From Eutreptiella sp. 'Long Island Sound 2002' (Eukaryota; Euglenozoa; Euglenophyceae; Eutreptiales; Eutreptiaceae), in the NCBI GenBank assembly GCA_964036045.1, contig OZ038385.1:25876853-25940852 (forward strand): DNA of 64,000 bases, read 5' to 3'. The translations under genes were made by a program, and so were the position numbers. Below the pieces are notes generated by a model, which was given only the letters and a program-made list of their open reading frames with translations, ran no database searches and was not told the origin of the DNA. This document shows positions 4,905-29,653 of the stretch, in pieces. How positions within the stretch are numbered: position 1 is the stretch's first letter; every line of letters begins with the position of its first letter.

Positions 4905-4958
<54 letters not shown>

Positions 4959-5023
4959 GTATGTGTTTGTGTGTGAATGTGTGTTATGCCCACAGGAATG
5001 GTCTTTTGGGTGTCGCTTTCGCT

Positions 5024-5115
<92 letters not shown>

Positions 5116-8100: not shown

Positions 8101-8895
8101 CTGTGCCTGACGAGATTCAGTGCAAGCAGGCCTCCTTGATCGCTGCTCACTGTCTTGGCTGTTGCCCATCGCGCGCGCGCGCGTGTGTATACAAAGGATG
8201 CGTGCCGGACCCAGGGAACTCTGCCCATCTCATTGCCCTACCCAGAACCCCTGTCACTTGCAGAAAGGTGCTATCAAAACAATGTCTTTGTTCTGCCTAT
8301 CAAAACAATGTTCTGCGTGGCCTGATGAGGTGTTTGGAGATTTGTATCCTGCGACCAACGTGCCCTGCTGTGCTCCGTATCATTTGGTTGTTGGTTCATT
8401 TGTTTCCCTCACGAAGTGTGTGTGTGTGTGTGTGTGTGTGTTTGTGTGCTGTTCATGCATTCATTTCAGGCCGTGTCCGACGACTACAACAATTTAGCCA
8501 AGGCCCCGTACGTCCGAATCCCCACCGCCATCGTCCACGGGACGTATGATGAGGTCACCCCTGTGTCCATGGGGGCCCAGCTGGAGCGTGCCATCCATGG
8601 GGCGAAGCTCACGGTCATCCCTGCGGGCCACCATGACGTCTTTTCAGGCTCGAGCGGGCAGACGTGTCTGCGGCAGATCCTCTCAGTCATGCAGGGCGGG
8701 GGCCACGCGGCCGCCCCGTATATGCCTGCCGCCAGCAACTCCTTCTATTCGCCAGCCCAACCAACCGCTTTTCCGGTCCTCCAACCTACAGCCTATCAGC
8801 CAAAACCGGCCTATGGTGGGCTGATGATGGGGATGGAAGACGCATATGCCTACCCCCCCTCCCTGGTCCCTGCCCCACAGGTGGTGATGGGATGA
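4276..8895 (+). CDS. Alpha/beta-hydrolase, ABHD13/17 (Bem46)-like, two exons
   Basis: Exons are 4276-4815 and 8470-8895, joined in phase 0 (AAG|GT...TTTCAG|GCC), giving about 321 residues. The fold is a serine alpha/beta-hydrolase. FFHGNG at about residues 61-66 is the oxyanion HG motif, and EYPGYG follows at 91-96. GQSLG at 134-138 holds nucleophile Ser136. HGTYDEVTP holds the acid, Asp207, and GHHD at 233-236 holds the His. All catalytic residues are present. Relatives in the ABHD17 group remove palmitate from membrane proteins and other Bem46 proteins have unknown substrates, so the substrate here is open. The C-terminal ~75 residues are rich in Pro, Ala and Tyr (YxxPAQPTAFPVLQP) and resemble no domain I know. 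The ATG at 4276 starts directly at a family-like N terminus. The spliced length fits the family, and the residues on either side of the junction align with no gap. Confidence 0.82.
4816..8469 (+). other. 3.65 kb intron of the hydrolase gene, GT-repeat at both ends
   Basis: The intron opens directly with (GT)n, so the donor GT is the first unit of a microsatellite. A second (GT)n tract at 8417-8442 lies about 27 bp before the TTTCAG acceptor. Further GT tracts are at 4909-4970 and 5029-5112. Two acceptor-like sequences, GCCCACAGG after GT tracts at about 4988-4998 and 5118-5127, look like a 130-bp duplication. The rest (5.1-8.4 kb) has no convincing ORF on either strand. A 272-codon frame at 5225-6043 on the minus strand has no recognisable domain. 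Confidence 0.75.
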
Positions 8896-11800
8896 AGATG
8901 TACATACGTACCCTATGCACACATGCGCATGGGAACGTGTCTGGAGGTGTGCGGCCGGCCCCCCTCGAAGCTCACCTGAAACACCAGAAATACGCCCCCG
9001 CCCCCCGCCTTCCGGGACCAATAAGCTCTGGATCAGGGTGGTGCGTCCGACACAGATCAGGGAACGACCTCAACTCTTTCTGACACAAATGCAGTCACAG
9101 TCTGAAATCTGTACCACAACAGCAGAGGGATTGAGCCGCCACTTACCAAGTCGGACCGGGGTTCAGGTGATGGTTTCTCCAGCCCGCGTCAAAACCCTAT
9201 CGTTTCATGACTTTGCTGCAGCCCACTGGCCCTGGCGGGTGTAAGGCCACACAATGTGGACCTATTTCTAGGGGGGAGTTGGAAATCGATACCCACGTTC
9301 TTGTATCTCAAGTCATGCGTTTTTGCGCTATTGAGCCTTTGCTCTTGTTCATTCATTCAAAGCATTGCACTAGATATTGGCGTAGTTCTCCATAAACTGC
9401 ACACACTCTAGGTTGGTCACCCAGGGACCCAGCCGTCCAGCAACCAAGCCAAGGAATTGTTGTTGTTTCAAAGAGGGTAATACAGGAATTCGCAGCAGGG
9501 TCCGTTGTGCTTCGGACGATGACCTGCCCCCCTTCTAGAACCCGACGAAGGTGTGGAGGTCCGGCACAAGGCGTTTGGCCCTGTAAATCATGCCATGTAC
9601 AGTACCCAGCCATTTCGATGTGCCAAGACCATATCATTGAGCATATGATACTCTCAGTGCAGCGCAACTGCGCATTGTTTTACCCACAGCCCTCGGGCCA
9701 ATGCATCATGCCTCTGTTGGTGAAGCGCAGCAGCGACTTCCGGAATATTGATTGCATGTCGTCAGAGCTATTCTGCAGATGAATGCCCAAGTGCTGATCT
9801 TGGGTGACTCCGGTGCATGACCTCATCTACTGACGGCTGCGCATTCCCATTAGCTGATGCTCACATCACCGCAGGTTTGGAGAAGCTCAGGGCGAAAGTA
9901 CACTGAAAGGCGTGTGGCTTTGCAGTGCCAATCCTGTCCTTTGTAGCATCCTCTCCTTTTCTCAAGAGTGATCCCCCTCCACCCCATTCATCCTGAGTCA
10001 GTATTTCCCAAGACAGAGGGCTGACCCGGTATCCAAGTCACTGACTGGCCCATTAAGCCCACCCATACAGCTCAGCTTTCTGTCTGTAGCTGGACTCACT
10101 GAGGCGCATGTCAGCGCCTGAGGATTATGACAGTGCACTGCCAAGTTGCCATGTGGCCTGAGCTGTGCTCGTGGGCACAGCTGCAAAAGGTTGTGATTGT
10201 ATATGGCGCTGCCGTGAGAAATGCCTTCCCTCTTGTGGAATTCAAGTTGTATTTAGAACATTACTAGTGATCTGATTTATCCTCCGCTCTCTTGGGATTA
10301 ATCCCCAGGCATGTGTAGAACTCTGACCGCAAAATGAACACACCTGGCACCTTGATCCAAAGTTGTGGTTGTCACCATTTCAACCGACAGCGAATGATCA
10401 TCATCAGAGTCAAGCAGCAACCTTAAAGTGCAGACAACTAAAAACCGACAGTTGCAGTCCAACCAGCAGTCGGTTGCAATTCCTGCTCCACCATGTATTC
10501 GAGTGCAATGTGACCCTAGAAGTAATGTTCAACCGTACATTGTGTGGTCGATGGGTGTCCTTGCGCACGGTCATTTGCGCATTCAATATTGTGACTGTCA
10601 CTGGAATCACTGCTTGGATTCTGAATGTACTGCATTCGATGCACGTGCCACAAGTGTTCGTTCGTATTCGGAGATTAGGGACGGCTGGCCTGGTGTGTGT
10701 GTGTGTGTGTGTGTGTGTCTGTGTGTGTCTGTGTGTGTGTGTGTGTGTATTTTTCAGCACCCAAGAAACTTGTGCTGATTTGCTGGCTTCACCCATGCAT
10801 TGTCCTGGGAAGACAATTCGAACGACCAAACCACAGCTAAACATGAGGTACATCGATTGGCCAAACTTGCCTCACAACTACTCCAACAATTGAGCCCCCT
10901 ACCCCACATGCAGTCAGCATCATGCTCAATGCCATACTCTTGTACTGCCTAGACTGGGTTCTGATCTGTTACCTTCTCCTGAGCTCGGACAAAGGGTGTG
11001 CCAGACCCAGGAAAACAAAATCCATGGATATCGCCCGGCAGTTGTGATGCCCTGAAAACAGGTAAAGGGATTCAGTAAGGGCTTAGTTGGCAAAGGTAAT
11101 TTCATTGTGTGAGGGGCAGAAAAGAACGTTGCGTTTTAAACTACATCCTCTTGCAGTCTTAGCCCCACCAAATTTGCAGAGAACAAGACAAAAGGATATT
11201 GTTGCAGGTCCTGGGCCTGAGTCGGGCAGACCACCAATTTGTCTCTTTGGTCATAGTGCATGCACAAATACAAGCCGGACAAGCATGTTCCACTCTTGTA
11301 AAGTTGTTTGACCATTCAGGGTAGGATGTGGGAAATATCAGATTTTCATGTCTTGTTGTTTTTTCTCTGTACAGCTTGGTGTACAGGGGGGAGGGGGGGC
11401 ACATGCACCGCACGACCCACTGAAACCCAGGATTCTTGGCCTTCACAACCCTATCAACCCTTTATGAGCACAAGAAGTGTGGATGTGAGTGATACAAGCT
11501 CTGTCAGTTGAAAACACCAGCTTATCTAGTCCCCAATCAGACCTGCGATTGCCTACTGCATCCCCATTGCTGGTTGCTGGGGTTCGTGCCCCACAGCACA
11601 TTTGCACCGATGAGGTTGAAGAAGTCTATGGCAAAAATTGCACCACCATTAGAAGGAACCATTCCAATCAACAGGGGCGTTCTACTGTTTATAAACCAAT
11701 CCTCCCCACCCTTTACTAAGTAGTACTACAAAAAGACAAATAGCTTCCAGGGCACACACCATATTGATGTCCTCGTCAACAACAAGTCAACAACAACGTG

Positions 11801-14695: not shown

Positions 14696-15298
14696 ATGTC
14701 TGCTGATGAGTTGCAAGCTCTGCTGCAGTCTCAACAGGAAGCCATTGGACATCTGCAGGCACATCTGGAGGATTTTGCGATTGTTGAGCGCAACAGTGTA
14801 CTAGACCTGAACGTGGCGGTTGTAGAGCAGTTTTTGGGTGGCGAAAGGGTGGCGAGTTGGATGCTGCAATCGGGCGAAGCCCTGCGCGATTACGTGCGGT
14901 CGTCTGACGCTGCGCCCGTTTGACCGTTGGACGTCATGGGCAACACCATGGAGTGTCCAAGAGGAGACCGCCTGGCATACCGACTATGGGGAATCATCGT
15001 GGACTCCCAGCGCACATACGCCCAGCGTTTTGTGTCTGATGGCAGCAGCCGAACTGACCCAGCAAACCCGCTGGATGCGGTACGCTGGTCGGAAGCTATC
15101 CAGAGGGGCGGACCGTCCTTCAAGTACAAGGGCATCAATTTCGCCATGCGACAAGGCGCCCTTCACTAGATGTCGAAGAAAGGGAGGTGGATACCGGTAT
15201 CAGCCAAACCCTCGGGCGGCTGTCAGGGATGCGCCAGAGAAAATGTCCCACAGGAGCAATTGAGGCATTGGCATTTCCAATGCCCCCTTTGGTCCTGA
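14696..15298 (+). pseudogene. Gag-like ORF of element 1, coiled coil plus Cys/His finger, two stops
   Basis: From ATG 14696 the frame starts with a Gln/Leu-rich, coiled-coil-like segment (DELQALLQSQQEAIGHLQAH) followed by a compact alpha-helical part. It is interrupted by TGA at 14921-14923 and TAG at 15167-15169, which fit CGA and CAG codons changed by C-to-T. After the second stop the same frame contains C-x2-C-x12-H-x3-C (CQGC...HWHFQC), a possible nucleocapsid zinc finger, and ends at TGA 15296-15298. Its position ahead of the recombinase supports a Gag role. The family resemblance is structural rather than sequence based. Confidence 0.45.
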
Positions 15299-16374
15299 CG
15301 GGACTGTGGCCTGTGTGGCCGGACCGAGTGGGGGTGGCCATGTTGGTGTGCGGATTCGAGATCAGTCGTTGGGAACCCAGCACCATTACCCACCCAAGGA
15401 GCGACCTTCCAGGCAGCGGTGGTCTGCTGGCGATGGCAGCTGTCGGCTCGTATCGGGTGGCAGCCGTGGGCGTGTGTGGGTGGGCGCCCAAGACCCAGCC
15501 GAGATGCAGATCTGCGCTATCCGCTTTGGCAAGCTTCGAGGGCGCGAGGGCACTGCAGACGTTGCTTACTGACACGTTGTCTGAATTCCTGGCGTCGCTG
15601 GTCAGTCTAGGGCGGGCAAGATCAACCCTCCGAGCGTACGACTCGGCCGTGTGGGTTGCCGAGGATGTCCGACTGCTTCCGAGATGTGTGCGAGCCATCC
15701 ACTGGAGGCTGGCGAAGTCGGGTGAGCCAACGCCCGGGCTGCATTACATGGGACCATGCGAGCTCTGTCTTCTCTGGTCCGGGGCATCATCGCCGAAAGA
15801 GCAAGCCGTGGCAGCCCTTGCTTGCCTCGGTTGTCTGCTCTTCCTCAGAGTATCTGAAGCGTTGTCAATCACGCCGGCGGGCCTGGAGAGCGATTCCGTG
15901 GTCATGTTCGTCACTACCAAAGTCGGAGGTCATAAGGAAGTGCGGAGGCCGCTCTATGGGTGGGGGCGATCTTGGGTCCGTCTCTTTAGGGCCTATGCTT
16001 GCATCCCTGAAGGTCAGCCATTGGTTCCAGGAGGAGTTGAGGCAGTGGAGAAGACCTTCGTAGACCTCCTCCGCGACTCCCCGTATGATCGTCATCGATG
16101 GCACAACCTGCAGAGGGGGGGCGCCGCCGCTGCCTTCCACCGCTCCCCCAACGTCCCCTATTTCGTTTGGTGGGGGCGGTGGAGGCGTCAGGCCACAGCT
16201 CCAGAGTACGCTCTGGGGTACTCTGCAGTGGTTGGGGCACTGGACTTGCCGTTGCCTGTTGGCGACCAAACTGCTCCTGGGGGCTGGTTGTGCTCTTGGC
16301 GGACCTGTGGGGTGATGCCATGTACGCCACATCCGAGAGGACGACCGGTTCGGAGGTCCCTGTGCCTGTCTTGA
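15187..16374 (+). CDS. Tyrosine recombinase of element 1
   Basis: This frame has the two-domain layout of tyrosine recombinases. A helical core-binding part runs about residues 115-205 (RARSTLRAYDSAVW) and the catalytic part about 205-345. Catalytic Arg is in FLRVSEAL (about R221), the beta-hairpin Lys may be K245 in TTKVGG, and the HxxR box reads HNLQRGG, so the expected second Arg is Gln (CAG, one change from CGG). The GRW box (WWGRW) and the nucleophile Tyr (about Y341 in APEYALG) are present. In DIRS elements this enzyme inserts circular cDNA by site-specific recombination. The true start is uncertain because the first ATG-like positions overlap gag and residues 1-110 are not family-like. 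The loss of HxxR Arg probably inactivates it. Confidence 0.7.
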   Translation: MDTGISQTLGRLSGMRQRKCPTGAIEALAFPMPPLVLTGLWPVWPDRVGVAMLVCGFEISRWEPSTITHPRSDLPGSGGLLAMAAVGSYRVAAVGVCGWAPKTQPRCRSALSALASFEGARALQTLLTDTLSEFLASLVSLGRARSTLRAYDSAVWVAEDVRLLPRCVRAIHWRLAKSGEPTPGLHYMGPCELCLLWSGASSPKEQAVAALACLGCLLFLRVSEALSITPAGLESDSVVMFVTTKVGGHKEVRRPLYGWGRSWVRLFRAYACIPEGQPLVPGGVEAVEKTFVDLLRDSPYDRHRWHNLQRGGAAAAFHRSPNVPYFVWWGRWRRQATAPEYALGYSAVVGALDLPLPVGDQTAPGGWLCSWRTCGVMPCTPHPRGRPVRRSLCLS

Positions 16375-16399
16375 GGGGCCTATCGTATCTCTTGCTGAT

Positions 16400-16744
16400 A
16401 TGGATGTGGCAAAAACTCAGAAGGAGTTGGATGGCGCTGGATTTGATTCGGATTCTACTACCGTTTCGTCCGCATCCTCCGAGCGTGGAGGGTCGCCGCG
16501 ACCTGCCAGGGGTGACTATGCCGCCCCTACCGCGGCCGCAGCGCTTGAGCCCGTCTCCGAGAGGGCAAGCACCTACAAGGACCCCCGCGCCGACCTCAAC
16601 ACTAGGTCACAGGCAGATGGGATTTCGCGAATCACTTCCCCGGGGGGGGGGACTTCCAAGAAACCCCACCACCTCCCTCGCTGGACTCGGCCCTTGTGCC
16701 CTCGCCCTGACGCTCACTCTCGGAATGCGAAGCTACTTTGCTGA
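16400..16744 (+). CDS. Hypothetical Ser/Ala-rich ORF between recombinase and RT
   Basis: A 114-codon frame starting at ATG 16400 begins with a polar acidic segment (DVAKTQKELDGAGFDSDST) and runs into a low-complexity Ser/Arg/Pro stretch. It could be a linker or the N terminus of the RT polyprotein, or chance in GC-rich DNA. A further Cys/His cluster (CELCGMGVHGRGVDAIHC) at about 17000-17055, in the frame starting 16931, hints at another degraded zinc finger upstream of RT. Confidence 0.2.
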   Translation: MDVAKTQKELDGAGFDSDSTTVSSASSERGGSPRPARGDYAAPTAAAALEPVSERASTYKDPRADLNTRSQADGISRITSPGGGTSKKPHHLPRWTRPLCPRPDAHSRNAKLLC

Positions 16745-17160
16745 TAGGCCCGCCTAAAAGCCCATCAGGATGCCGTCGCTTGAGGGCAGGTTGTCGGGCC
16801 TTCGCAGAACCTAGGCCCACTGCCGCGCCTGCCGCATGATGCCATCGGACAAGTCGGGAACCGCCGAGACCAACGACCCTCCTCTTGGATCTCGGCGCGC
16901 CGGGGCCCGCGCCTCCTGTCTTAACGACCCTTGGCTCCTGGGCGGGTGCCCGCGCATGCCTCGCACGCTTTCCCCAACTCCGATCGGAGGTTGGATATCT
17001 GGTGTGAACTTTGCGGAATGGGGGTCCACGGCCGTGGCGTCGATGCAATCCATTGTGTGTTAGGTCTGAACCAGTGCCTCCGTTTGTTAGTTTTTTCAGT
17101 GTGTTCTTTTCTTTCCTACCCTGGCTTCACCGGGCGTTGTCTTGCAGTGTCTTGTTACTT

Positions 17161-18888
17161 ATGCGGCGCCCGCATATGTTTGTTTTACGGATGTTTGTCA
17201 CTTGTGAAGATTTTCGACTCAAATCTGTGCCGGATATCATTTTTGATGTTCTGAAGGAATTCACTTCGGATTCGTGGGAAGGTCTGTTGCACCTTTCCAC
17301 TTCCCCCGTGCGTCAGGTGGGTAAGGTGAATCCTCAGTTGGTTGGACAAGGACTCGGTGCGGTGGGTACTTATGAGGTCTCTGATGCGTTGTGGAGTGAG
17401 CTAGCCCCTGTGGATTTTGAGACCTCTGTTTTGGAGTTTTCCTTGCATCGCGACGTTTACTCCCTGACTAGGGATGAAATGGTTTTGCCCATGGTTCGTT
17501 GGCTCCTGACTGCGCGGGTTGTGAGCATTTTAGATAGGAACCTCCCTTTGAGGGCAACGTGCTGGCCGTTCATAATACCCAAGACCACAGAAAAGGTGTT
17601 GCTCATCTTTAACTTGGTTGATTTGAATGAGGGTTTGAAAAAAGCGGCCTCCTTTTCTCTGGATCGGTGGGAGCAGATTTTGCAAAAACTGGCGGAATGG
17701 GCGGCGGATAGACCGTTGTTCTGTACGCATGTCAATTTGAAAACACGTTCTGGAGTTTTACATTGCCACGGTGGCATGCGAGGGGCTTTTCGGTTCCGTG
17801 TGCGGTGGGAGGGTGAGGATAGGATTTTTTGTATGTCCCGGATGCCCTTCAGGTGGAAACACTCCTCGCTGTTTTGTTAGACAGCCCTGGGCCGTATCGT
17901 GCGCCCCCTCATACCAGACGCTTATCTGCTTTTTCACTACCTGGATGATTTCCAAAACTTCGGACCGGACCCGGTGCACTTGCGAGCCATCACAGCGCGG
18001 GTGGTTTGGGCCCTGGAGGAGGCGGGATTCCTCGTTTCGGCCAAGAGCACCCTAGACCCAGTTACTGAGTTTTTTTTTTTCTTCGGAAAATACGTTAACT
18101 TGGGTGTGCGCACTATGAGGTCCCACCCATGTGCTTTTCTGCAAATGTTTAACATTTGGTTGCGTTTGGCCACCCGCTCCCGCCCTTCGTCCCGCTTGCT
18201 TTCTAAGGCCTTAGGTTTCATCCACTGGCATTTCCGGCCGCGGTTGGGAGGGGGCCCCCTGCTCGCTAGGAGCTATTGCTGTGACCTTGGGGGGGGGTTC
18301 GAGCGCCCAACGCCCCGCAAAGTCCTCCATGGGCAATGTACTCCTATTGTCCGGTTTATGGAGCCCTGGGAGCCACCCGCATTGGCACGTATTGCCGTGT
18401 ACCGTTCATTGTCAATTGCGCGTGATTTGTGGGCGGTGCGCCATTGTGTGATGTTTGGTGATGCAGCGCTGGGTGCTATCCGGTACGGGGGGGGGGGCTT
18501 TATACCGAGGTTGTTTGGTATTCGTTCGCAGATTATTCCCCTGGGAAGGTATACACAGCAAAGTGCGGAGCTGTGGGTATTGGTGTGGCTAGTGTGGTTG
18601 GCCGTGTGACTGGGTTGGGGTTATGTCGTCCTGGTGACGGATTAGCAAGTGGCGGCTTGCCAGTTTTTGTCACTGCGGGCCTCTACATGGTTGAATCGAC
18701 AGCAACGTTTTTTGCGTGCCCTGGTGTTACATCCCTTGATTGTAGAATTGCGCTTAGTGCAAGGGGTATTGCAACCAGCTAATCCGCCTAGTAGATTGGA
18801 TTTGAATTATCAGTCTAGCATGCAACGTGCATGTAGCCGGGCTTATCGTTTGTGGCGGGTGTCACTTGCTCATCCTCGTGAAGTGTAG
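17161..18888 (+). pseudogene. Reverse transcriptase-RNase H of element 1, three nonsense codons
   Basis: One frame runs from about ATG 17161 to TAG 18886-18888, broken only by TAG 17878-17880, TGA 18607-18609 and TAG 18643-18645. Each sits where CAG or CGA would fit. The RT fingers are at PFIIPKTTEKVLLIFNLVDLN (about 17566-17628). Motif A reads THVNLKT, with Asn (AAT 17734-17736) in place of the catalytic Asp. Motif B is near MPFRWKHS and motif C is YLDD at 17938-17949, intact. RNase H follows, with FGDAALGA as the first Asp and AELW as the Glu. The final NPAD-type box reads PANPPSR, again Asp to Asn (AAT 18781-18783). DIRS-type RT copies element RNA into circular DNA; this copy cannot be active. 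Confidence 0.7.
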
Positions 18889-19472: not shown

Positions 19473-20255
19473 TCAGGACACGCGGGGGTTCAACCAAAGC
19501 GGCGCCTGACTTAGTGTTGTGTTGAGGGGCAAGGTGCGGGCCTCTGGGGCCAGCGTCATGGTGATGTTGGTGGCGTCGCCAGGGTGCCGCACATGTCGGT
19601 CCACGGCACACCTGCCAAAGAGCCCGCTGATGCAGACCAAGTACTTGTCATCCTGCTCCGTCCAGTTGGCCTCAGTTGCTTCCCATGCAGTAGACCCTGT
19701 ACCATAGGTGCTCCTGGTCTGCCACACGCATTGCATCAGGTGCTGGATCTCCTTCATGATCAGCATGGTCTGTGCCGCCCAGCCTGCGAGGCAGTGGAGC
19801 AGCGCGATCTCGAGGGTGACGCCCACTCTGCGCGTTACGCCCGCGGATGTGTCCCTGTCGTCGTTGCCCCATTGCGGAAGTTGCCGCTGGTGTGTGGCCA
19901 TTAGGTCGTTGAGCTGCAGCAGCATGTCGCAGCGGGTACTCCCCGGCATGTCGCGCCTCATGAAGATGGCCCTCGCTGCTGCGGCCACCTTATCGTCCAC
20001 ATCGGCCTCATTCACCGTCGGCAGCGTGTTCCGCACCTCCTGCATGGCTGGGTTGGAGGTCTGGAGCGTCGCACCATGCATCGAACTGGGCCACTCGTTG
20101 TTGACGAAGTACTGCTTGCAGGCGGCGTACTTGGACCCGTTTCCGCCGAGCGCCGCACGGGAAGGCCGGCACCGCTGATTGCGCTGGCATAGCAGACAAA
20201 GTCCTGCTCCAGCCAACACAGCGGCGGCAGCGACTCCATTCTCAGTCCCCATCAT
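19473..20255 (-). CDS. Aldehyde-dehydrogenase-derived ORF inside element 1
   Basis: From the ATG pair at 20250-20255 the frame has a short hydrophobic leader (VAAAAVLAGAGLCLLC), then a clear aldehyde dehydrogenase N-terminal region (20117 down to about 19760). YFVNNEWPSS corresponds to the FINNEW segment, TSNPAMQEV to the NPATGEV segment, and ADVDDKVAAAARAIF and LLQLNDLMATHQRQL to the following helices. A later LAGWAAQTM resembles the FRYYAGWADKI region. The catalytic half (Cys and Glu box) is absent. The remaining ~90 residues to the stop at 19473 are not recognisable. It lies antisense within a retroelement, so it is most likely a captured host mRNA fragment rather than an enzyme. Confidence 0.55.
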   Translation of the reverse strand: MMGTENGVAAAAVLAGAGLCLLCQRNQRCRPSRAALGGNGSKYAACKQYFVNNEWPSSMHGATLQTSNPAMQEVRNTLPTVNEADVDDKVAAAARAIFMRRDMPGSTRCDMLLQLNDLMATHQRQLPQWGNDDRDTSAGVTRRVGVTLEIALLHCLAGWAAQTMLIMKEIQHLMQCVWQTRSTYGTGSTAWEATEANWTEQDDKYLVCISGLFGRCAVDRHVRHPGDATNITMTLAPEARTLPLNTTLSQAPLWLNPRVS

Positions 20256-20283
20256 GAAAAATATACTGCACACTGTGGACAAG
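20256..20283 (-). promoter_or_regulatory. Shared leader sequence upstream of captured ALDH start
   Basis: On the minus strand CCACAGTGTGCAGTATAT precedes the ATG by a few bases. Similar leaders precede the ATG of the LHC piece at 24976-25015 (CCACAGTGGGTAGTATA) and of a short frame at 19366-19400 (GTGTGCAGTATATCTTC). It may be a common 5' UTR, promoter or trans-spliced leader remnant. The role is unknown. Confidence 0.4.
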
Positions 20284-20356
20284 AGAGGCAGCGATGCCAA
20301 ACCTGGGTTTCTGGGGAAACCTGGGATTGACTGACATGGTGCACGGACTAGACAAC

Positions 20357-20384
20357 GAGAAACTGCCCAAGACATTGTGTGTGT
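20357..20384 (+). repeat. 28-bp inverted repeat, left copy (partner 29350-29377)
   Basis: GAGAAACTGCCCAAGACATT followed by GTGTGTGT is perfectly matched, reverse complemented, at 29350-29377, next to a long (CA)n tract. The two copies bracket the block containing element 2, so they may mark its ends. They may instead be a dispersed microsatellite-seeding sequence. Confidence 0.55.
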
Positions 20385-20936: not shown

Positions 20937-21197
20937 CAAGACAAAGCACCAAATTAGTTCAACAATACACCTCTTGTAATCTTCATCCTCTATTGCCATA
21001 TCACGCGACGATGCAATACCAGCAATATAAATATGGACCGGGCATGTCTGGGAAATGCGGGCCGGTCACTCAGCAGCCAGTCAGCCACGGGGCCTGGTCC
21101 CCACGTCACATTGGGGTGGCGTCTGGACCGCGCTCTGGTGAGGAGGCGGCGCTGTGGGCGGGCGTGACCGGCGTCGCGGGGGACTGCTGCGGGCTGG

Positions 21198-22370
21198 TTG
21201 GTGGCGGGGGCTGATTGGGGTGATGTGGCTGGGGGGAGTCCGGCGGTGTCTCTGGGTCTTCGGCCGGTGGATGCGGCGCTGTGGTTTCGGCGTCGATCGC
21301 CATCGCATGATTGCCTTCGGCTGCTGCTGGGCTATCTGGGCACGGCGCGGCTGGTCCCGGCGGTGTTGACGGATGTGTTGGTGGGGTGTCGCGCGATTGT
21401 GGTTGAGGGATGCCAAACAGGCGTCGCTCAACCTCTGGGTGGCCTTGTTGGTGGCCAGCGACAGCACTGGGGCCACCTTGAGAAGTGGCGGGTGTACATC
21501 CTCCGATACAAACGACCCGACCACTTGCCCACCACCCCCCTGTTCCCCGGCGATGGTTTCGCCAGCAAGTGCCTGCACGACCTGCTCGACGGCACCCCCA
21601 GCGCCCACATCACATGGCACCCGTGGAAGAGGTTCGCCGCCGCTGCGTACATCTGGCTTGGGGGGACCACGCCTCGCCTCCAGCAACGGGCACGGTGGCA
21701 CTCCCCGAAACGGGCCCGTCATTACGCCAAACACCCCCCAACATGGTCCCTGCCTGACACCATGTGCCTGCCCCTCCCAGCCCACTTCACAGGCTCCCCA
21801 GCTCGAGATATTGACTATGGGATCATCAACACCAAGGACCTGTGGCCTCGTGAAGCGTGGGCCCCGTCTACGCACCGCACTCGCCGTGCACCACCACCAC
21901 CTGCACACGTCGCCCAAAACCCACACTTCCACGACGACGACTCGTCGAGCTCGGGAGAGGAATCAGCGGACGTTACTGCGCAGCACTGCCCGCTGCCAGC
22001 GACCCAGCCCCAAAGCCCGCCTCCGCAAACGGAAGGAGCGACACCGGGCGTATGCCTGGCGATGCAGGGGAGCCACGTTCAACCCATACTGGTTCCTGCA
22101 GCGGATAAGCCACGACCTGAACGCGAGACGCCGCCGCGGGGCACCCCGCGGAATGGGGAAGCAGCGCAAAGTGTGGAGGGCCACACAGCTACTCCTGTCC
22201 CAGGATGTCCCGCAGGCGGACCTGGTGATCACGGTCTGCCAGATGCGGCGCCCCAGTACAAAGCAGGATCGCCGCCACAACCGTGCCCCAACGATGCCGC
22301 AGTATGGGCTGAGCGGCACAGTGACCCATTCAGCGTTGACTTTTTGGTCCTAGAACGTAAGGAATCGTGG
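21198..22370 (+). pseudogene. C-terminal catalytic half of tyrosine recombinase, element 2, displaced
   Basis: Within this open plus-strand frame the segment at about 21480-21775 matches the distal catalytic region of DIRS-type recombinases. LFPGDGFASKCLHDLL is followed by HPWKRFAAAA (HxxR box, with Lys at the Arg position), ARWHS (GRW box) and RHYA (nucleophile Tyr). Downstream the frame continues into a Pro/Ser/Asp-rich tail (HDDDSSSSGEESADVT), which may be a real C-terminal extension. No N-terminal recombinase domain precedes it on this strand. That half is on the minus strand at 22229-23101. The pair therefore looks like one gene broken by an inversion with a breakpoint near 22.3-22.4 kb. 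Confidence 0.5.
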
Positions 22371-23101
22371 GGTGGCAATGCCGTCCCAGGTAAAACGAAC
22401 ACGGCGAACACGGCGGCGCATGCCACCGCGAAGAAGGTGCGTGCCCACGCCCAGTGGTGGCGGCATTTACCAAGTCGCTCGAGGTCTTTGCCTATTGCCC
22501 ATATGCGTGGTCTGGCCATGTGGGCAGTGCTCTTGTCGATGGCGCGGACTTGCAGCCACATACGGGCTGTGACCACCTTTGGGATGAGCTGCAGCTTGGC
22601 CAGCATTTGGAACCCAGAGACGGTGTTCCGCGCCACAGAGCCGCCCCGCCGTCTGTGCCCAAGAAGCAGGAGGCGGCCGTCGATAGCCAGCTGGACGCCG
22701 TCGTCGCTGTTGGTGCCCTGCAGGGTGCCTCGTACTGCACAGAGGTACGTGGCCCTGGTGCCTTTGGCGAAAGCTCTGACTGCAAACACCAGTGTGTCAC
22801 TGTGGTGGTCGCGCAGGCCTGCACGCAGCGCTGTGCGGTAGGCGTCCCATGCCTGGGCCACTGTGACGGCGATTTGGGCTGGCGCGGGGGGTTGTGCGGG
22901 GGCGGGGGGGGGGGGGTGCGTACTGCGCTTCAGGCAGAGGAGGTCGGGCCACCGTGCTGCTGCACGAGTTGGAGCAGAGCGGCTGCCCAGTCGACTTGCT
23001 GCTGGCCAGGGCCGGCGGATGGTTGCTGTGCAGCGGGGGCGGTTGGGGGGGCCTGTGCTGGTTGGGGGCAGGGGTACTGGGCCCAGTGCCACTGTCCACA
23101 T
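22229..23101 (-). pseudogene. N-terminal half of tyrosine recombinase, element 2
   Basis: The minus-strand frame starts inside the 3' end of gag (overlap 22930-23101). After a Pro-rich lead it shows the core-binding helices of a tyrosine recombinase: a GTRATYLCAV helix, then GGSVARNTVSGFQMLAKLQL, then a RPR turn. A hydrophobic segment follows (FFAVACAAVFAVFVLPGTAL), corresponding to the FxLRPGEAL box. The catalytic Arg is missing from that box (VLPGTAL). The frame then loses resemblance at about 22360 and stops at 22229, with no HxxR or Tyr box. The rest of the enzyme is found on the other strand at 21.4-21.8 kb. Confidence 0.5.
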
Positions 23102-25836
23102 CTATTGCACGGCGCTGGGGGCGGTCCGTTCATGTCGTAGGCCTGGTTGTTGTTGACCCAGAGGGTGTGCTGGCCCACTTGCTGCATGTGGCCCCCGGCC
23201 TGCTTCCAGCGGCACACGCGTGCAATATGTCCCCGTTGCCCACAGTGGAAACATACTGTGCCCGATCCTGTCGCCGGCGCCGCAGGCGGCGCTGTGAAGC
23301 ACTGGGCCCGCGCCGCCTGTTTGGCCGGCATGGCTGGCGCTGACGGTCTGCCCTGGCGCTTGGCCCTCAGCTCTTCGTTCAGCACTCTCCACACCGTGGC
23401 GGGCAGCGGCTGCTTGGCCCACGCGCCCGACGGGTCCTCCATTGCGACCTCCTTCAGTGCCGCGCCCAGGGACGTCATCCAGGCGTAGGGCAGGGCCTGT
23501 GTAAGGAAGCGGTCAATGGCGTGTGTCGTCAGCGGTGGTATCATGGACTGCCTCATGTGTTCCACTTCCAGCTTTTGCGCTGACAGGAGCGCGACAATTT
23601 CGCGCATCCTGCCTTGGTCGGAGGTGATGTCCCCCTCTGCCTGGGTTGGTGCTCCTGCTGGGGGAAAACCCTTGAAGCGTAGTTCCTGGAAGTCCGGTCT
23701 GAGGTGCTTTCGCGCTGCGTACGCCCCCATTGCCCATACTGTTGTCGTGCGATCCATATCCATCCCCGCCGCCGCTGCAAACATGGCCAGCTGCTCTTGC
23801 GTGGCCTCGGCCTCCATCAAGTACTCCTCCATGTCCACCTCCCACTTGTCCAGGTCGCTGGCGTATGTGTTGCGGCTTTCGATGGCCACGTACGGGCCTG
23901 CGACCCACCTGGCCCACTCGAGTACGGTAGGATGCGGTTGCGGTGTGGGCGGGCTGGGGCTGGTTTCCGTGATGTTGGCGTCGGAGTCGCGCCCTGGCAC
24001 CCTCCTGAAGACGCTCTTGACGAAGTCCGGCTGCAGCGATCTGCGGCCCTTGTAGGCTGCCATGGCCCGCGTGGCCTCGGCTGCGGTGAGGGCCATGCCC
24101 GCCCGCGTGGTCATCGCGGCGACGGCCCCTTCTGGGATCCGAGGCTCGGTGAGAGCCTCGAGGAACGCCAGCTCCCACTCGTCCAGCTGCTGTGCGAAAT
24201 GGGCGCTCCTGAGCAGGGCTTGGTACGGGCCCTGCACCCACTTCGCCCACGCCTGGAGGGATGAATTCGCCGCTCGCTGTGGCTGTGGCGCTTCCGTGGT
24301 GTCCATGTTGTCGTCCCCGTTGGTTTGCCCGCTGGGCTCCCTCTTGGCAGGCATACCGCCCCGCAGTCGGCCTAGCACCTCGAGCGTGGAGCCTTCTCCG
24401 ATGCCGTACTGGGCCAGGGTCCAGTGGCTGTGCGTCAGCGTTTTGCCCGCGAACACCAGGCGATGCATGCCTGCCGGCGTACCCTGTTTGTAACGCAGGT
24501 GCGCCTCGATGGTGCTGACGGGGTCGTGCCATGAGTGGACGCGGACCGTCATGGTGCGTCCCGTCGCAGCTTTGACGAACACGTGTCGCACTGGTCCGGA
24601 GTCCCCGTATTTGGCGACGTTGCGCGGGAGGAGGGGCTGCGATACCAGGTTGTTGCCTCCGGGGAACCCTGGGTGCATCGCCAGGCCCATCAGCACGCGC
24701 GGGGGTCCCGTTGCCGGATCCTGCTGCACCTCAGGGTTCAAGTAGCTCAAGGTGCCCACCATATTCCAATGAGCGTGGATCAACCTGCCCTCATGGTATG
24801 CGGCGAGTGCGGCGGGGTCGGTGGGCAGACCGTCGGCGTCCCAAACGTAGTCACCAGGGTACTCACCACCGTGGTAGTCAGGGTCGGATGCTTCAGAGAA
24901 CGGGCGCCACCTTGTGTTGCGCCCAGGACCACCGCATGCAGCCAAGTTGTCAAGTACACGGCCAGAGGTAGCAGCCATGGCCGCGTACAAGATTATACTA
25001 CCCACTGTGGATAAGACACGGATGGAGGCCACGGCGATTTGGGAGGTCCAGCTCTCACCGGGACCCTCATCAGTCGCTATGGCCTGCACGTAATATTCGA
25101 ACATGGAGGCTATGGCCCAGCGGTTGTTCTTGGTCCGCTGCATCTGCAGCTCCATGACAGTGTCAGGGTTGTCAGTCCGAACCAGAGGGTCGAAGGCTTC
25201 ACCAGTACGGAGCGGATGCAGGTCCCTGCGCAGTGGACCAACGTGCACACGGTAGGCCCCAAAGGCACCCGGCACGACAATATGGCAGGCCGCAGTAGCA
25301 GCGATGTACTGGGCGTGCAGCAGGTTGGAGTTGCCGCGGTAGTCCAGGTCGCCCCCAGAGAAGATCCGCGCACCAGGCTCGTCGATCTGCACATCTGTGT
25401 ACTGGGTCACCCACTCAGGGGTCAAGCAGCGCGAAGTGTCGGTTGGGCAGTTCTTGCCAGGGGCAGTGATCACGACCTTCTTGGCACCAGCCTCAATGTG
25501 CCTGGAAGAGCCCTCCAAGCTGTTGAATGCACCAGTACCCTCGATGACGACCTCAGCATTCGTTTCCTGCCATGGGGCGGCGGCATGGTCACGGGTGGAG
25601 ATAAGCTGCATCTTCTGGCCGTCAACGGAGATCCAGTCATCACCGCACAACACAGTCCAGCGAGCGTGGATCAGCACGGCCTTACGGTACGCGGCGAATG
25701 TGCCAGGTTCAGCGGCCAGCCCAGCAGCGTCCCAGCCGTAGTCAACAGGGTACTCACCAGTGAGGTAGTCAGGGTCGGAGACGTCGGCGATTGGGCCCAG
25801 ACATTTGTGGCGCTCAGGGCCACAGCAGTTAGCCAA
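22930..25836 (-). CDS. Chimeric LHC-GAPDH-LHC-ubiquitin-Gag polyprotein ORF of element 2
   Basis: A 968-codon open frame, uninterrupted. Residue order: LHC N-terminal piece 1-64 (GEYPVDYGWDAAGL, IHARW); GAPDH NAD-domain piece 66-128 (VVIEGTGAF, HIEAGAKKVVITAPGK); LHC C-terminal piece 136-261 (NLLHAQ, AFDPL, YYVQAIAT); leader plus second LHC N-terminal piece 287-370; unassigned 371-416; ubiquitin-like 417-494 ending RLRGG before Met495; Gag 495-968. Gag has two related helical repeats (527-614 and 638-725), a C-x2-C-x4-H-x4-C knuckle (862-875) and a second C-x2-C-x3-H-x5-C finger (910-923). The first codon is TTG, and the frame continues upstream without an ATG to a TGA at 25939-25941. Chlorophyll-ligand residues of the LHC pieces are partly lost. 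All captured pieces come from abundant mRNAs, suggesting template switching during reverse transcription. Confidence 0.7.
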   Translation of the reverse strand: MANCCGPERHKCLGPIADVSDPDYLTGEYPVDYGWDAAGLAAEPGTFAAYRKAVLIHARWTVLCGDDWISVDGQKMQLISTRDHAAAPWQETNAEVVIEGTGAFNSLEGSSRHIEAGAKKVVITAPGKNCPTDTSRCLTPEWVTQYTDVQIDEPGARIFSGGDLDYRGNSNLLHAQYIAATAACHIVVPGAFGAYRVHVGPLRRDLHPLRTGEAFDPLVRTDNPDTVMELQMQRTKNNRWAIASMFEYYVQAIATDEGPGESWTSQIAVASIRVLSTVGSIILYAAMAATSGRVLDNLAACGGPGRNTRWRPFSEASDPDYHGGEYPGDYVWDADGLPTDPAALAAYHEGRLIHAHWNMVGTLSYLNPEVQQDPATGPPRVLMGLAMHPGFPGGNNLVSQPLLPRNVAKYGDSGPVRHVFVKAATGRTMTVRVHSWHDPVSTIEAHLRYKQGTPAGMHRLVFAGKTLTHSHWTLAQYGIGEGSTLEVLGRLRGGMPAKREPSGQTNGDDNMDTTEAPQPQRAANSSLQAWAKWVQGPYQALLRSAHFAQQLDEWELAFLEALTEPRIPEGAVAAMTTRAGMALTAAEATRAMAAYKGRRSLQPDFVKSVFRRVPGRDSDANITETSPSPPTPQPHPTVLEWARWVAGPYVAIESRNTYASDLDKWEVDMEEYLMEAEATQEQLAMFAAAAGMDMDRTTTVWAMGAYAARKHLRPDFQELRFKGFPPAGAPTQAEGDITSDQGRMREIVALLSAQKLEVEHMRQSMIPPLTTHAIDRFLTQALPYAWMTSLGAALKEVAMEDPSGAWAKQPLPATVWRVLNEELRAKRQGRPSAPAMPAKQAARAQCFTAPPAAPATGSGTVCFHCGQRGHIARVCRWKQAGGHMQQVGQHTLWVNNNQAYDMNGPPPAPCNRCGQWHWAQYPCPQPAQAPPTAPAAQQPSAGPGQQQVDWAAALLQLVQQHGGPTSSA
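23212..23253 (-). other. Gag CCHC zinc knuckle
   Basis: CFHCGQRGHIARVC has exactly the retroviral/retrotransposon nucleocapsid spacing C-x2-C-x4-H-x4-C, which binds element RNA. This identifies the downstream part of the polyprotein as Gag. Confidence 0.85.
23662..24258 (-). other. Internally duplicated helical Gag domain
   Basis: Residues 527-614 and 638-725 align over about 88 positions: AWAKWVQGPY with EWARWVAGPY, LDEWELAFLEAL with LDKWEVDMEEYL, and AAYKGRRSLQPDF with GAYAARKHLRPDF. A tandem duplication of the capsid-like domain is inferred. Both copies keep the same hydrophobic pattern. Confidence 0.65.
24355..24588 (-). other. Ubiquitin-like domain fused N-terminal to Gag
   Basis: About 78 residues align along the whole of ubiquitin with two single-residue insertions: VFVKAATGRT for IFVKTLTGKT, LVFAGKTL for LIFAGKQL (the Lys48 position kept), GEGSTLEV for QKESTLHL, and the terminal RLRGG directly before Met. 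The Lys63 position and hydrophobic-patch residue 8 differ. If deubiquitinases still cut after Gly-Gly, Gag would be released with a Met N terminus. Confidence 0.75.
24727..24978 (-). other. Captured LHC leader and N-terminal piece (second)
   Basis: From MAATSGRVLDNLA (ATG at 24976-24978) through GPGRNTRWRPFSE to GEYPGDYVWDADGL and LIHAHWNMVGTLSYLNPEV, this follows LHC precursors from leader to the first membrane helix. The Glu before IHARW, a chlorophyll ligand, is not preserved. Confidence 0.6.
25054..25431 (-). other. Captured LHC C-terminal piece
   Basis: Covers the second and third membrane helices of an LHCII-type protein: TPEW, RIFSGGDLDYRGNSNLLHAQ, VVPGAFGAYRV, AFDPLVR, then KNNRWAIASMFEYYVQAIAT. 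The pattern follows green-lineage LHC proteins, which supports a green alga. The helix-3 Glu of the KEIKNGR motif is changed. Confidence 0.7.
25453..25641 (-). other. Captured GAPDH fragment
   Basis: About 63 residues resemble the NAD-binding domain of glyceraldehyde-3-phosphate dehydrogenase, closest in pattern to plastid GapA/B: VDGQKMQLISTRDHAAAPW, then VVIEGTGAF, then HIEAGAKKVVITAPGK. It is inserted exactly where the first LHC helix would continue. The catalytic Cys region is not included. Confidence 0.7.
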
Positions 25837-25968
25837 GTTGTCAGATACGCGGTCCAGGGCGGTGCCATGCCCAGCCGCTGGGCTACGCAGGCCTGAGACT
25901 CCACTACCAGCAGCTCTGTCGTTCCCAGCTCCTGGACATCAGTCTGGTTGCTGTGACACGCAATCCCG

Positions 25969-26880
25969 TCATCGCTGGGTGCCGGCCATGGGCAGCCAAG
26001 CTCCAGTCGCTGGCAGTACGTCCGCATCGCTTGTGGGGCTTTGCCATGCTGCTGCGTCTGGTTGATGTGCTTGTGCGAGTGCATACGGGAGCGGCAGCGG
26101 TACGAGGAGGTGGGCTGGCGGAGTTGTCGGCCTAGGTGCCGCAAGCGGGGGCTGCAGTGGGGCCGCCTTCGAATGCGACGGAGGCGGCGTAGCTTGGTGC
26201 GTCGGGGACAGCATGGGCTCCGTTGCCGTGCACACGGGTTGGCGGATCTGCGCGGCGGCGGCCACCAGCATGCTGTCCATGATCGCCACGTGCAATGCCA
26301 GACCCCCCACCGCGAGGTCCTGCTGCACTTGGCGCATCACGGCATTTGCTGCCGGCGCGTGCGCGGTCTCCGGCTCCACCGGCGGTGCTGGTTGGGCTGC
26401 TTCCGGTGTCGGGGTCGTGTTCGATCGCTGCACCTGTACCATCTCCGCGTTCTGCTGCACGGCCGCCACGTCGGCGAACGGGCCCAGACCCTTGTTGCGC
26501 TTAGGGCCACAACAGTCAGCCAAGTTGTCAGATACGCGGCCCAAGGCAGTACCCATGGTAGCCATGAAAAGTACACCGCCGTGCTTGATCTTCTTCACCT
26601 GCAGCTCAGCAACAGTGTCAGGGTCTGCAGCCAGCACCAGAGCGTGGAAGGTTTCACCAGGGTGGAGCAGTTGCAGGTTCTTGCGCATAGCACCACCGCG
26701 CACACGGTAGGCCTGAAAGGTGCCCATCAGGACAATTTGGCAGGCCATAATAGCAGGGATGGCCTGGGCGTGCAGCCGGTTGGAGTCGTCGAGGTTGTCC
26801 ATATCTCCCCCAGTGAAGATCTGTGCACTAGGCTCTTGTCGCACAGGTTCATCGACCTGCACATCAGTGTGCTTGGCCAC
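25969..26880 (-). pseudogene. Upstream LHC fragment plus coiled linker, same frame as the polyprotein
   Basis: A 303-codon frame, in register with the ubiquitin-Gag frame and separated from it only by TGA codons at 25969-25971 and 25939-25941. Residues 1-107 are an LHC C-terminal piece (AQIFTGGDMDNLDDSNRLHAQ, IVLMGTFQAYRV, LAADPDTVAELQVKKIKHG). Residues 108-138 repeat the leader (MGTALGRVSDNLADCCGPKR) found again before the next LHC piece. The rest is a Pro/Ala-rich linker with a helical part. Upstream, in another frame at about 26890-27010, is yet another LHC N-terminal piece (DPSTFAAYREAVMIRACW, LTPEV), so a frameshift lies near 26880. The tandem LHC arrangement recalls LHC polyprotein genes. 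Confidence 0.5.
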
Positions 26881-26966
26881 CCACCACCTCTGGGGTCAAG
26901 CTGCCCGAAGTACCTAGCCCAGCCCAACAAGCGCGGATCATCACGGCCTCACGGTACGCGGCGAAG

Positions 26967-29147
26967 GTGCTGGGGTCAACGACCAAGCTGGCGGCGTCCA
27001 GCCCCCCCACACAGCTAAACGCCCACACGAGCCCACCGGAGTTACCCCCGCCCCCCAGCGAAAAGCTAGACCGCCAAACCCGCCGACACCAATACGCACC
27101 CCGCCCGCCCTCCAGAGTACCGCCGACAGTGACGCTCAGCCACAACACGACCATGCCCCATTTTGGGGATACGATCTCCTCGCGCCTCGGAAGGGCTCAC
27201 GGTACCTGCTCTGGCAGCCGGGACCCGTGCCACTGCCACCATTGGACCCAACCGCCACGTGCGTCCGTTTTGGAGCGTTTGCAACACATGATGCAGGAGG
27301 CAGCCCATCGCATGTCGATCAAAGGGCCACGTACCGGCACTATCCTATCCCTGCTCAGCGACCTGGCGATGCTGGCAATGAACCGGGCATGGGATCGGGG
27401 GCTATGGACCACGACCACTGAGCACATCACGGCGGTCATGGCAGTGCTGGCGGACCGTGACCCCCGCGAGGAAGACATCTCCCCGCCCTGAGACACCAGC
27501 CCCAAGCCCAAGCAGACACCGGGAGACCCGCTGCCACTGCATGTTGCATAGAAGGGCATCGGAGCGGCAGGCACCATACCCATCGAATCGGACACGTGGC
27601 GCAAGCACAAGCCAGCCGGCATGGAAAGGGCGCTGCGTGTAGCCCCTGACATGGGGGAGTCCGACGACGCGGCATTGGCGGCGCTGGCCAAGGCTATGCA
27701 CCGGGACGGCCTCCTGATCCAGTGCACGGACCAGCCCACAGCCAATATGCGCGCCTTCTCGAAGCTGAAATCAGCGGAAAAAGGGGCGCTCATTGCCGAC
27801 CTGCGCCTCCTCAACGCCCTGATGGGCAGCCCCCCGCAGCCGTTTGAGCTGCCAAGCCTCACACAGCTAGCAGCGCTGCTGGAGATCCTGAGGGCCAGGG
27901 GAGTCAAGGCACACTTTACCAAGCTGGATGTGTCCAACATGTACTGGTGTGTGCTACTGCATGCGACCAGCTTCCGGTTCCGTGTCAAAGGTACCACCTA
28001 CGCCATACCCAGCCTGCCTTTTGGCTGGGCAGCCAGCCCCAACATGGCCATAGAGGTACTGGCGGCCTACCTCACCCTACACTTCCCAAGCGACACCATC
28101 CTCATCCAGTATGTCGATGACATACTTCTCGTCTCCGCCGACCCACACCGCCTGTACCTCGAAACGACTATGCTTGCTGAGGACCTGCATGAGGCGGGGT
28201 GGATTGTGAGCCCCAAATCGCAGGTCATACCCGCCACCAATGTGTCTTGGATGGGCAAGGAGCTACGCGAGGACGAGTACATCCTGCTGCAATCGGCAGA
28301 GTATATGGCAACCACCATAGCCATGTGGATCCGACTTGCCACCAAGGGTTATCACCACCGTACGATGCGCAGGCTCTGTGGGAAGCTGATCTGGGCGTCT
28401 CGCCCTGGCAGAGGGGCCATGCCTTTCCTCAGCGGGGCGCTCGCGTGGATGAATTGGGGCCCCCAGCGGGCCAAGTACACTCCACCGGCAGTCGTGCGCG
28501 GACTGATGGAGGCTATCGCGGTCAGCCTGACGCCGTGGCAGGCGCCGCCGGCACTTACAGATCGCGCGGAAACATGGTTCGTAGACGCCGCCTTTGACGA
28601 CGGAGGGTGGACGGCGGCCCTGTGGACGGCCTGGCGAGGCATGCGCATATGGGCATTGCCACCATGGGTCAGAACACAGCAGGGGGCGGAGCTGGCGGCC
28701 ATCGAGATGGCAGCCAAGACAGCAGCGTACGAAGGGCTGACCAGCCTGCACTTGGTCGCAGACAACATGTCGGCCATATGGTCGACTATACGTAGTAAGG
28801 GCAGCACCGCCAGCCCCGATCGCGCCAGACACCTCCGGCGCATTGCCCACACGCTGCGTTGGTCGCACCTCAGGATGCGCCTGAGCTGGATTGCATCCCG
28901 CTTCAACCCTGTGGGTTTCCCTTCCCGCAGGTCCAAATACCAGTCTTTCCTCCACATGGCGGGGCCGCGCGCTCCCGCCCATCAGATGGTTGTTCGAATT
29001 AAACTGTGCCCGTGTCCGGAGGGCAGGGAGGATCTAGAGAATCAGCCAAACCATTGCCGTGTGCGGTCACAAGCTTGCTCCAGTGGGGGCCCTTACATAG
29101 GGGTGAGCGCATGGGCATGCTGGGCTGCAGGTTGCAGGTTGCAGTAG
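26967..29147 (+). pseudogene. Reverse transcriptase-RNase H of element 2
   Basis: One frame from 26967 to TAG 29145-29147, broken by TGA 27489-27491 and TAG 27549-27551. The part from ATG 27621 is open for 508 codons. RT motifs: GALIADLRLLN (fingers), KLDVSNMYW with catalytic Asp at about residue 103, LPFGWAASP, YVDDILLV at 164-170, and SPKSQVIP. RNase H follows: Asp in WFVDAAFDDGG (about 322), Glu in GAELAAIE, Asp in LVADNMSA (about 381). The last box reads FNPVGFPSR, with Gly where the family has Asp. The frame order is typical of DIRS-type pol, with no protease or integrase. Element RNA copying would need the stops bypassed; otherwise the product starts at 27621. Confidence 0.75.

Positions 29148-29303: not shown

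Positions 29304-29359
<56 letters not shown>
29304..29359. repeat. (CA)n microsatellite at right edge of element 2
   Basis: About 28 CA units. It directly abuts the right 28-bp inverted repeat (29350-29377). Confidence 0.9.
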
Positions 29360-29360
<1 letters not shown>

Positions 29361-29653
29361 GTCTTGGGCAGTTTCTCTGGCAGTTTGAGGTCTTTCAAGA
29401 GGACACAGCAAAATACCTTTCAACCATTCTATCGATTTCTGGTTGTACCCCCCTTTGTGCAAGCACCTGTGTCTAAGCAACACCAGGGGTTGGCACTGTG
29501 GATTTTGGCAATGCGATTTGTAATTGGTCCAATTGTGTGCCATGTGTGCTGTCCCGCAAGTGGAACACGCTACGAACTGAGAAGGCAATGAAGGCCGTGT
29601 GAAGGCAGGCACGGCTGGAGCTAAGTGGTGGGTCCACACCTGACCTTCTGAGG

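Follow-up and report, generated by a model that had tools for sequence, protein, structure and literature searches.

The open frame and its surroundings

The minus strand of the analysed stretch (64,000 nucleotides of Eutreptiella sp. DNA, the window in what follows) carries a frame at 22930-25836 that stays open for 968 codons and joins LHC, GAPDH, LHC, ubiquitin and zinc-knuckle Gag sequence, as seen in the ORF listing and with Pfam. By base composition alone, such an open frame has a probability of about 5e-13. It opens at 25836 with TTG, and its first ATG is found at 25611 (893 aa). The first-pass annotation had described this single frame together with a further LHC piece upstream, in frame with the mosaic and separated from it by two TGA codons only. 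The frame is present where it had been placed, and both TGA codons were located, at 25971-25969 and 25941-25939, between the frame and the LHC piece at 26551-26880 (minus strand, Pfam). Another LHC first-helix fragment, recognised by sequence comparison, lies at 26882-26998 on the same strand in a different frame.

Read along the minus strand, the mosaic starts with LHC piece 1 (25654-25866), an LHC N-terminus and first helix, and continues with a captured fragment of plastid-type GapA (25444-25653) and with LHC piece 2 (24991-25443); both LHC pieces were recognised by structure match and host LHC alignment. LHC piece 3 (24721-24990), a linker and first helix identified by comparison with other copies and a host LHC locus, is bordered by a 23-bp remnant of terminal repeat A (24994-25016). 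A leader delimited by sequence comparison follows at 24586-24720 and contains a diverged repeat A at about 24631-24674 (66%, E 8e-4). The ubiquitin domain (24355-24585, ORF residues 418-494; Pfam, tail alignment) ends in RLRGG, directly followed by the Met of Gag (22933-24354, ORF residues 495-968; Pfam), whose zinc knuckle CFHCGQRGHIARVC lies at about 23212-23253. When the frame was compared with Pfam, as had been proposed, Chloroa_b-bind (7.6e-21, in three stretches) and ubiquitin (PF00240, 4.3e-10) came out above the cut-offs, whereas Gp_dh_N (25.4 bits) and zf-CCHC (18.3 bits) stayed below them. The best of the NCBIfam GAPDH models for the GAPDH piece is PRK07729 (1.5e-19, residues 56-129), under the cut-off of this full-length model. 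A low-confidence predicted model of the ubiquitin-Gag part (score 58) suggests that the Gag region consists of two tandem helical domains.

Beyond Gag, the window copy is rearranged. The N-terminal half of a tyrosine-recombinase-like ORF (YR) is found at 22302-22927 on the minus strand, in two frames, and its C-terminal half lies inverted at 21477-21842 on the plus strand. Both halves were recognised by copy comparison, and in a comparison with protein P0017 the inverted half continues from the point where the N-terminal half stops. The spacer between YR and reverse transcriptase (RT) is located at about 21111-21466 on the minus strand (91% to L010 at +3133 to +3479). The reverse transcriptase-RNase H region at 27129-29054 (Pfam, copy comparison), with stops at 27489 and 27549, and the split direct repeat B at 28959-29052 (92.6%) are on the plus strand. 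Among 21 copies, only the window copy has the RT and the second YR half opposite to Gag. Because the spacer keeps the sense of Gag and the RT is opposite, we propose a large inversion of about 21111-27018, which together with a small inverted segment at about 21480-22315 carrying the YR C-terminal half would account for the layout. A native divergent layout was rejected, as 14 of the 20 other copies have the RT in Gag sense and none has it opposite. The window copy is very probably inactive. An exact 22-bp inverted repeat (20360-20381 and 29353-29374), beside CA/TG runs and 9 kb apart, was considered as the termini of the element, but its core has no match in the other copies searched, and the copy L023 ends in A/B direct repeats.

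The window holds further features. An ORF with an aldehyde dehydrogenase (ALDH) N-terminus (19473-20375, minus strand, Aldedh 4.3e-7) is found directly behind a terminal repeat A (20259-20325, minus strand, 91%) that opens the ALDH-bearing fragment, and about 20000-20333 is 90% identical to a far upstream part of L012. We take this ORF to be a likely neighbouring fragment of the same element family. The plus strand carries a second, older element at 15187-18876, in which a YR-like ORF (15598-16212) precedes an RT region (about 17236-18876); its identity is 24-38% to the RTs of the family and 27% to the family YR, and no Gag match was found there. An uninterrupted 1052-codon ORF at 48457-51615 on the plus strand has WD40 repeats and a weak Sec16-like Pfam match, and is perhaps Sec31. 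A tandem repeat with a unit of about 162 bp lies at 62334-62782 (2.8 copies).

Copies of the element and its putative class

Searching the genome with the ubiquitin-Gag part gave 84 matching stretches, 16 of which cover 487 residues or more with an identity of at least 83%. The 84 stretches are a lower bound and not a copy count, since some belong to one copy and two contigs duplicate a place; another 13, at 34-37% identity, match no more than part of Gag. Twenty copies, mostly from the top of this list, were taken as DNA and compared with the window copy, giving 21 in total. A protein search with the ubiquitin-Gag part found 22 relatives at 37-93% identity, and the LHC-GAPDH part found further proteins having identical mosaic junctions.

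The order in the copies is LHC, with or without GAPDH, followed by ubiquitin, Gag, YR and RT. Ubiquitin directly precedes Gag in every copy (20 of 21) except L021, which has only the ubiquitin tail; this does not fit the earlier view of ubiquitin as one captured piece among others. Sense LHC sequence is found upstream in 17 of 21 copies; within the stretch compared, there is none in L013, L016 and L028, and L027 has an antisense piece only. Eight copies carry a sense GAPDH piece (the window, L009, L010, L012, L014, L015, L018 and L021), and L022 has antisense GAPDH scraps. YR lies downstream of Gag in all 21 copies. RT lies downstream in the fourteen copies mentioned above; several stretches end early, and no RT was seen within the stretch compared in L009, L013, L014, L015, L018 and L020. 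The first-pass annotation's claim that the Gag is that of a retroelement is supported.

The same annotation had named a lack of shared junctions as an observation that would speak against an in-frame fusion, but the junctions recur in other copies: six sequences have the GAPDH-to-LHC junction in common, four the LHC-to-GAPDH junction and five the LHC-to-leader junction. L011 and L023 share 97% identity along 8,988 bp. An assembly artefact, in favour of which we found nothing except the inversions of the window copy, is therefore refuted for the fusion, because identical junctions occur at several genome places as well as in database proteins encoded on other contigs; we regard it as practically negligible. 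A search of viral contigs found no relatives of the element.

Some single sequences differ in their layout. L023 has a single open frame of 1971 codons at 3018-8930 which comprises LHC, ubiquitin, Gag and YR, a shift joining the Gag and YR frames. In L016, 450 open codons without LHC (3666-5015) precede ubiquitin; this segment is also present in P0007, and comparison with Pfam and PDB gave no match. The database protein P0028 has a GON-domain piece and a MACPF match below the cut-off ahead of LHC-GAPDH.

In L023 the element is about 9.2 kb long and its split direct repeats are complete. Relative to ubiquitin, A1 is found at -1984 to -1913, B1 at +6909 to +7001, A2 at +6998 to +7069 and B2 at +7134 to +7226, with 98.6% identity between A1 and A2 and 98.9% between B1 and B2. 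Short matches give the order A1...B1-A2-B2 in L028 and B1-A2-B2 in L016. The RT has a Pfam match (RVT_1, 4.6e-8) and a best profile match to retroviral RTs at 4.7e-17; RNase H was judged solely from conserved columns in alignment A3. In YR, the residues R174, K198, H259, R263 and Y294 are invariant in all seven aligned proteins, down to 26% identity; the alignment omits five more loci, two of these for a stop codon. We take this R, K, H, R, Y set to be the signature of tyrosine recombinases. One of three YR proteins matches a PHROG integrase (1.5e-4), while Pfam gave no recombinase match and PDB a lone, unrelated match at E 3.1. An AlphaFold model of P0017 from a thin alignment was unusable (pLDDT 41). 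The five invariant residues, the PHROG match and the repeat pattern point to a putative tyrosine-recombinase-type retrotransposon.

Host-derived sequence ahead of ubiquitin

An uninterrupted 511-codon frame of plastid-type GapA in the same genome, L043, matches the GAPDH piece with 95% identity over 217 nt. With the GapA frames L042 and L043 we find a mobile piece and a parent gene elsewhere, as in Bs1-like transduction. The LHC pieces of the window have 69-77% nucleotide identity to one host LHC locus, and GAPDH is therefore probably the later arrival. It is located between the LHC residues HARW-L and G-T-x-x-CLTPE, apparently without having displaced any LHC sequence, and its junctions are of two types on the left (P0032 and P0039 versus the window type) and of one type on the right. 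The earlier claim of captured LHC and glycolysis sequence is thus borne out by plastid-type GapA and LHC coding sequence that match host loci. The route suggested with it, template switching onto host mRNA, gained no support. The GapA and LHC loci examined are uninterrupted frames in their own right, which makes the absence of introns uninformative about an mRNA intermediate, and missing introns had to be dropped as proof of a spliced-mRNA capture.

Among solved structures, LHCI-2 of Euglena gracilis (9vfj) matches the LHC part best, and the genome carries many tandem LHC loci. Euglena LHC genes are described as tandem units encoding polyproteins (PMC12577709), and such genes are a likely source of the LHC pieces; the captured pieces differ from them in being diverged and, as a whole, free of constraint. 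The succession of LHC pieces may be partly inherited from tandem LHC genes. The repeat A remnant between LHC pieces 2 and 3 argues against a tandem-gene legacy alone.

Repeat A is found inside several copies. Internal copies lie at about -685 in L011, L017, L019 and L023, at -1380 in L018 and at -1349 in L012, and the 23-bp remnant is found at -430 in the window, L009 and L010; several are at or near the starts of captured modules. The leader before ubiquitin is itself a diverged repeat A in 8 of the 11 copies compared (E below 1e-3, 65-96% identity), with weak matches in L014, L016 and L025. With repeat A at or near several module starts and also in the leader of most copies compared, the pattern suggests that modules were added stepwise behind it.

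Selection and a possible fate of the captured part

For an analysis of selection, nine copies with the whole or part of the mosaic were placed on a tree, with codons mapped from tblastn stretches scoring 35 bits or more; of L014, L015, L021 and L022 the aligning parts alone were used. The captured part has 167 synonymous, 439 missense and 3 nonsense changes, with an omega of 0.94-1.00. Three mutation models predict 15-19 nonsense changes (P 6e-6 to 2e-4); the 3 events account for 4 stop codons, one of them common to the sisters L009 and L015. Leaving out the window gives 161, 412 and 3 changes, with 14-19 nonsense changes expected (P 1e-5 to 3.5e-4), and an earlier tally which shared out multi-step paths gave 6.2 versus 19-20 expected. 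Gag has an omega of 0.33-0.35 and 10 nonsense changes versus 36-43 expected from the synonymous rate, and the omega of ubiquitin is 0.54-0.60 in nine copies; over 20 copies it is 0.57 (P 1.4e-7). The captured amino acids as a whole are free, and stops are purged with roughly the efficiency seen in Gag. The first-pass annotation had supposed that the open frame could mean selection and had called for dN/dS across copies. The stop depletion agrees with this, whereas the captured part, with its omega about 1, shows no conservation of its domains.

Pooled pairwise omega values follow the same gradient: on the captured side they are 0.82 for LHC piece 1, 1.95 for GAPDH, 0.92 for LHC piece 2, 0.60 for LHC piece 3 and 0.84 for the leader; on the Gag side they are 0.55 for ubiquitin, 0.44 for the linker, 0.22 for Gag and 0.39 for the tail. 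Two LHC repeats inside the window are in agreement with free amino acids in the captured part, with a pooled dN/dS of 1.07 (bootstrap 0.69-1.72), and two 28-codon LHC linker pairs gave 0.28 and 0.96. LHC piece 3 (omega 0.60-0.74) gives a hint of weak constraint, and this value and the wide presence of LHC pieces among the copies would be expected if the LHC and GAPDH domains worked for the element, in targeting or pigment binding. This reading, already disfavoured, is very improbable given the overall omega of the captured part; furthermore, the host segment KEIKNGR, which presumably has a ligand role in LHC, aligns with QRTKNNR in captured LHC. The GAPDH pieces (25444-25653 in the window) have an omega near 2, with 78 missense and 13 synonymous changes between copies and a one-sided P of 0.001 in one of nine separate regions; this may be chance.

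Of the three frames, the one running into ubiquitin stays open longest in 16 of 20 copies, with a median of 216 codons versus 35 and 49. Six of the seven other mosaic copies now have a stop or frame break in the mosaic: part of it is out of frame with Gag in L010, L012, L014, L015 and L021, and L009 and L015 have stop codons. Only L018 and the window, among eight mosaic copies, are open from the mosaic through ubiquitin, and L018 stops 484 codons past the ubiquitin start, before the end of Gag. One explanation is that the captured part is untranslated 5' baggage, with Gag or ubiquitin-Gag made from a downstream ATG and the openness left over from its coding origin and GC-rich composition. The omega about 1 and the frame breaks would fit with this, as would L013, which has almost no leader, and the antisense frames, which are also long in the ORF listing. 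In simulations at branch lengths of 0.05, 0.1 and 0.17, a neutral stretch of 415 codons acquired no stop in 18-27%, 4-9% and 0.5-3.5% of runs, respectively; evidence from a single copy for selection on openness is thus weak and was replaced by the nine-copy test. We nevertheless consider untranslated baggage unlikely, as nonsense changes are depleted with and without the window, the frame leading into ubiquitin is mostly the longest, and ubiquitin is constrained yet does not start with Met in most aligned copies.

The ubiquitin of the window has 43% identity to ubiquitin and diverged surface residues, and all 16 tested positions, which we take to be buried in ubiquitin, are hydrophobic. Neutral simulation at 46-54% identity gave an all-hydrophobic core in 4-7 of 500 runs, and in all 12 alignable proteins the core is hydrophobic at 15-16 of the 16 positions. 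Twenty of the 21 genomic tails could be aligned without a gap, L021 by its tail alone and L012 being omitted for a gap; 18 of them have RLRGG, all 20 have GG, and Met is next in 19. In the database proteins RLRGG is found in 11 of 15, and the other four end in RLQGG, RLCGR or RLCGG. With PF00240, core and tail retained, the domain belongs to the ubiquitin family of beta-grasp folds with a C-terminal RLRGG. The top 8 Foldseek hits of a low-confidence model of this region are ubiquitin-like chains, all weak (best E 0.025). Ubiquitin might also stay on Gag as an uncleaved domain that recruits, for instance, host ubiquitin-binding factors, with its tail incidental. Its constrained fold and the viral ubiquitin in the weak Foldseek list are compatible with this role, but we judge it improbable, because nearly all aligned tails keep RLRGG and then Met despite the diverged surface.

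The reading that agrees best with the data, and that we think more probable than not, is that the captured stretch is a translated but disposable leader, with deubiquitinases freeing Gag after RLRGG. The element would have the layout A1, captured modules, in places an old A, ubiquitin, Gag, YR, RT/RNase H and B1-A2-B2, with the window as a degraded copy. Pieces of genes for plastid proteins (LHC, GapA, and ALDH in the neighbouring fragment) would have been added stepwise, often behind repeat A. From an upstream start, as we infer, the captured stretch would be translated as the front of a Gag precursor. Stops within it would abolish Gag and be purged, while its amino acids would be free. A folded ubiquitin with a retained RLRGG would let host deubiquitinases cut after GG and release Gag at MPAK, and everything upstream would be discarded. 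If the leader is disposable in this sense, the stops and frame breaks in six of the seven other mosaic copies must be decay after insertion. More tentatively, and a little less probably than the leader itself, ubiquitin as a self-trimming joint, freeing Gag from any sequence ahead of it, could let the element go on taking up host coding sequence behind the terminal repeat.

Free amino acids together with purged stops are a directly testable sign of sequence that is translated but disposable. If such a self-trimming joint is real, the element would supply a stream of translated fusion peptides without sequence constraint, a natural nursery of chimeric proteins and a tangible way for new fusion proteins to originate. 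In a euglenoid, the element would bring together three things that normally occur apart, namely a poorly known class of retrotransposon, the successive uptake of host genes and a ubiquitin placed where it could spare Gag from the effects of this uptake. Among the listed titles and abstract openings of the open-licence literature on Euglena retroelements and gene capture, on DIRS and tyrosine recombinase elements and on ubiquitin with Gag, we found no ubiquitin-Gag or capture-bearing element of such kind, and none of the listed papers on DIRS or tyrosine recombinases names Euglena. In the E. gracilis genome paper, unclassified repeats make up 32.7% of the genome, and the word DIRS is absent from its main text (PMC11252322).

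Several known systems resemble parts of this element. PAT-like, Ngaro-like and VIPER-like elements likewise have Gag, RT-RNase H, a tyrosine-recombinase-like ORF and split direct repeats, for which the order A1...B1-A2-B2 is reported (PMC6681497). Here, in contrast, ubiquitin precedes Gag, host modules lie in the Gag frame and the order is Gag-YR-RT. This order is shared with DIRS1-like elements, as the ORFs of DIRS1 are named in the order Gag, YR, Pol (PMC3266345). DIRS1-like elements differ in having inverted terminal repeats with internal complementary regions, whereas the ends of L023 are split direct repeats; a further difference is that the Pfam scan of the RT ORF of the window found no methyltransferase. 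Ubiquitin is known as a joint cut by host enzymes from ubiquitin fusion genes, such as those with ribosomal proteins, and from insertions in viral polyproteins. Our element may be analogous in placing ubiquitin before another protein as a potential joint for host cutting, but here that protein is a retrotransposon Gag and the ubiquitin is diverged. Bs1 of maize is said to have its captured host pieces fused to gag. It is an LTR retrotransposon with pieces of several host genes and represents the nearest precedent for the capture (PMC7264820). The element described here differs from Bs1 in being of the YR type, in having ubiquitin between the captured part and Gag, and in its accretion near repeat A in many copies.
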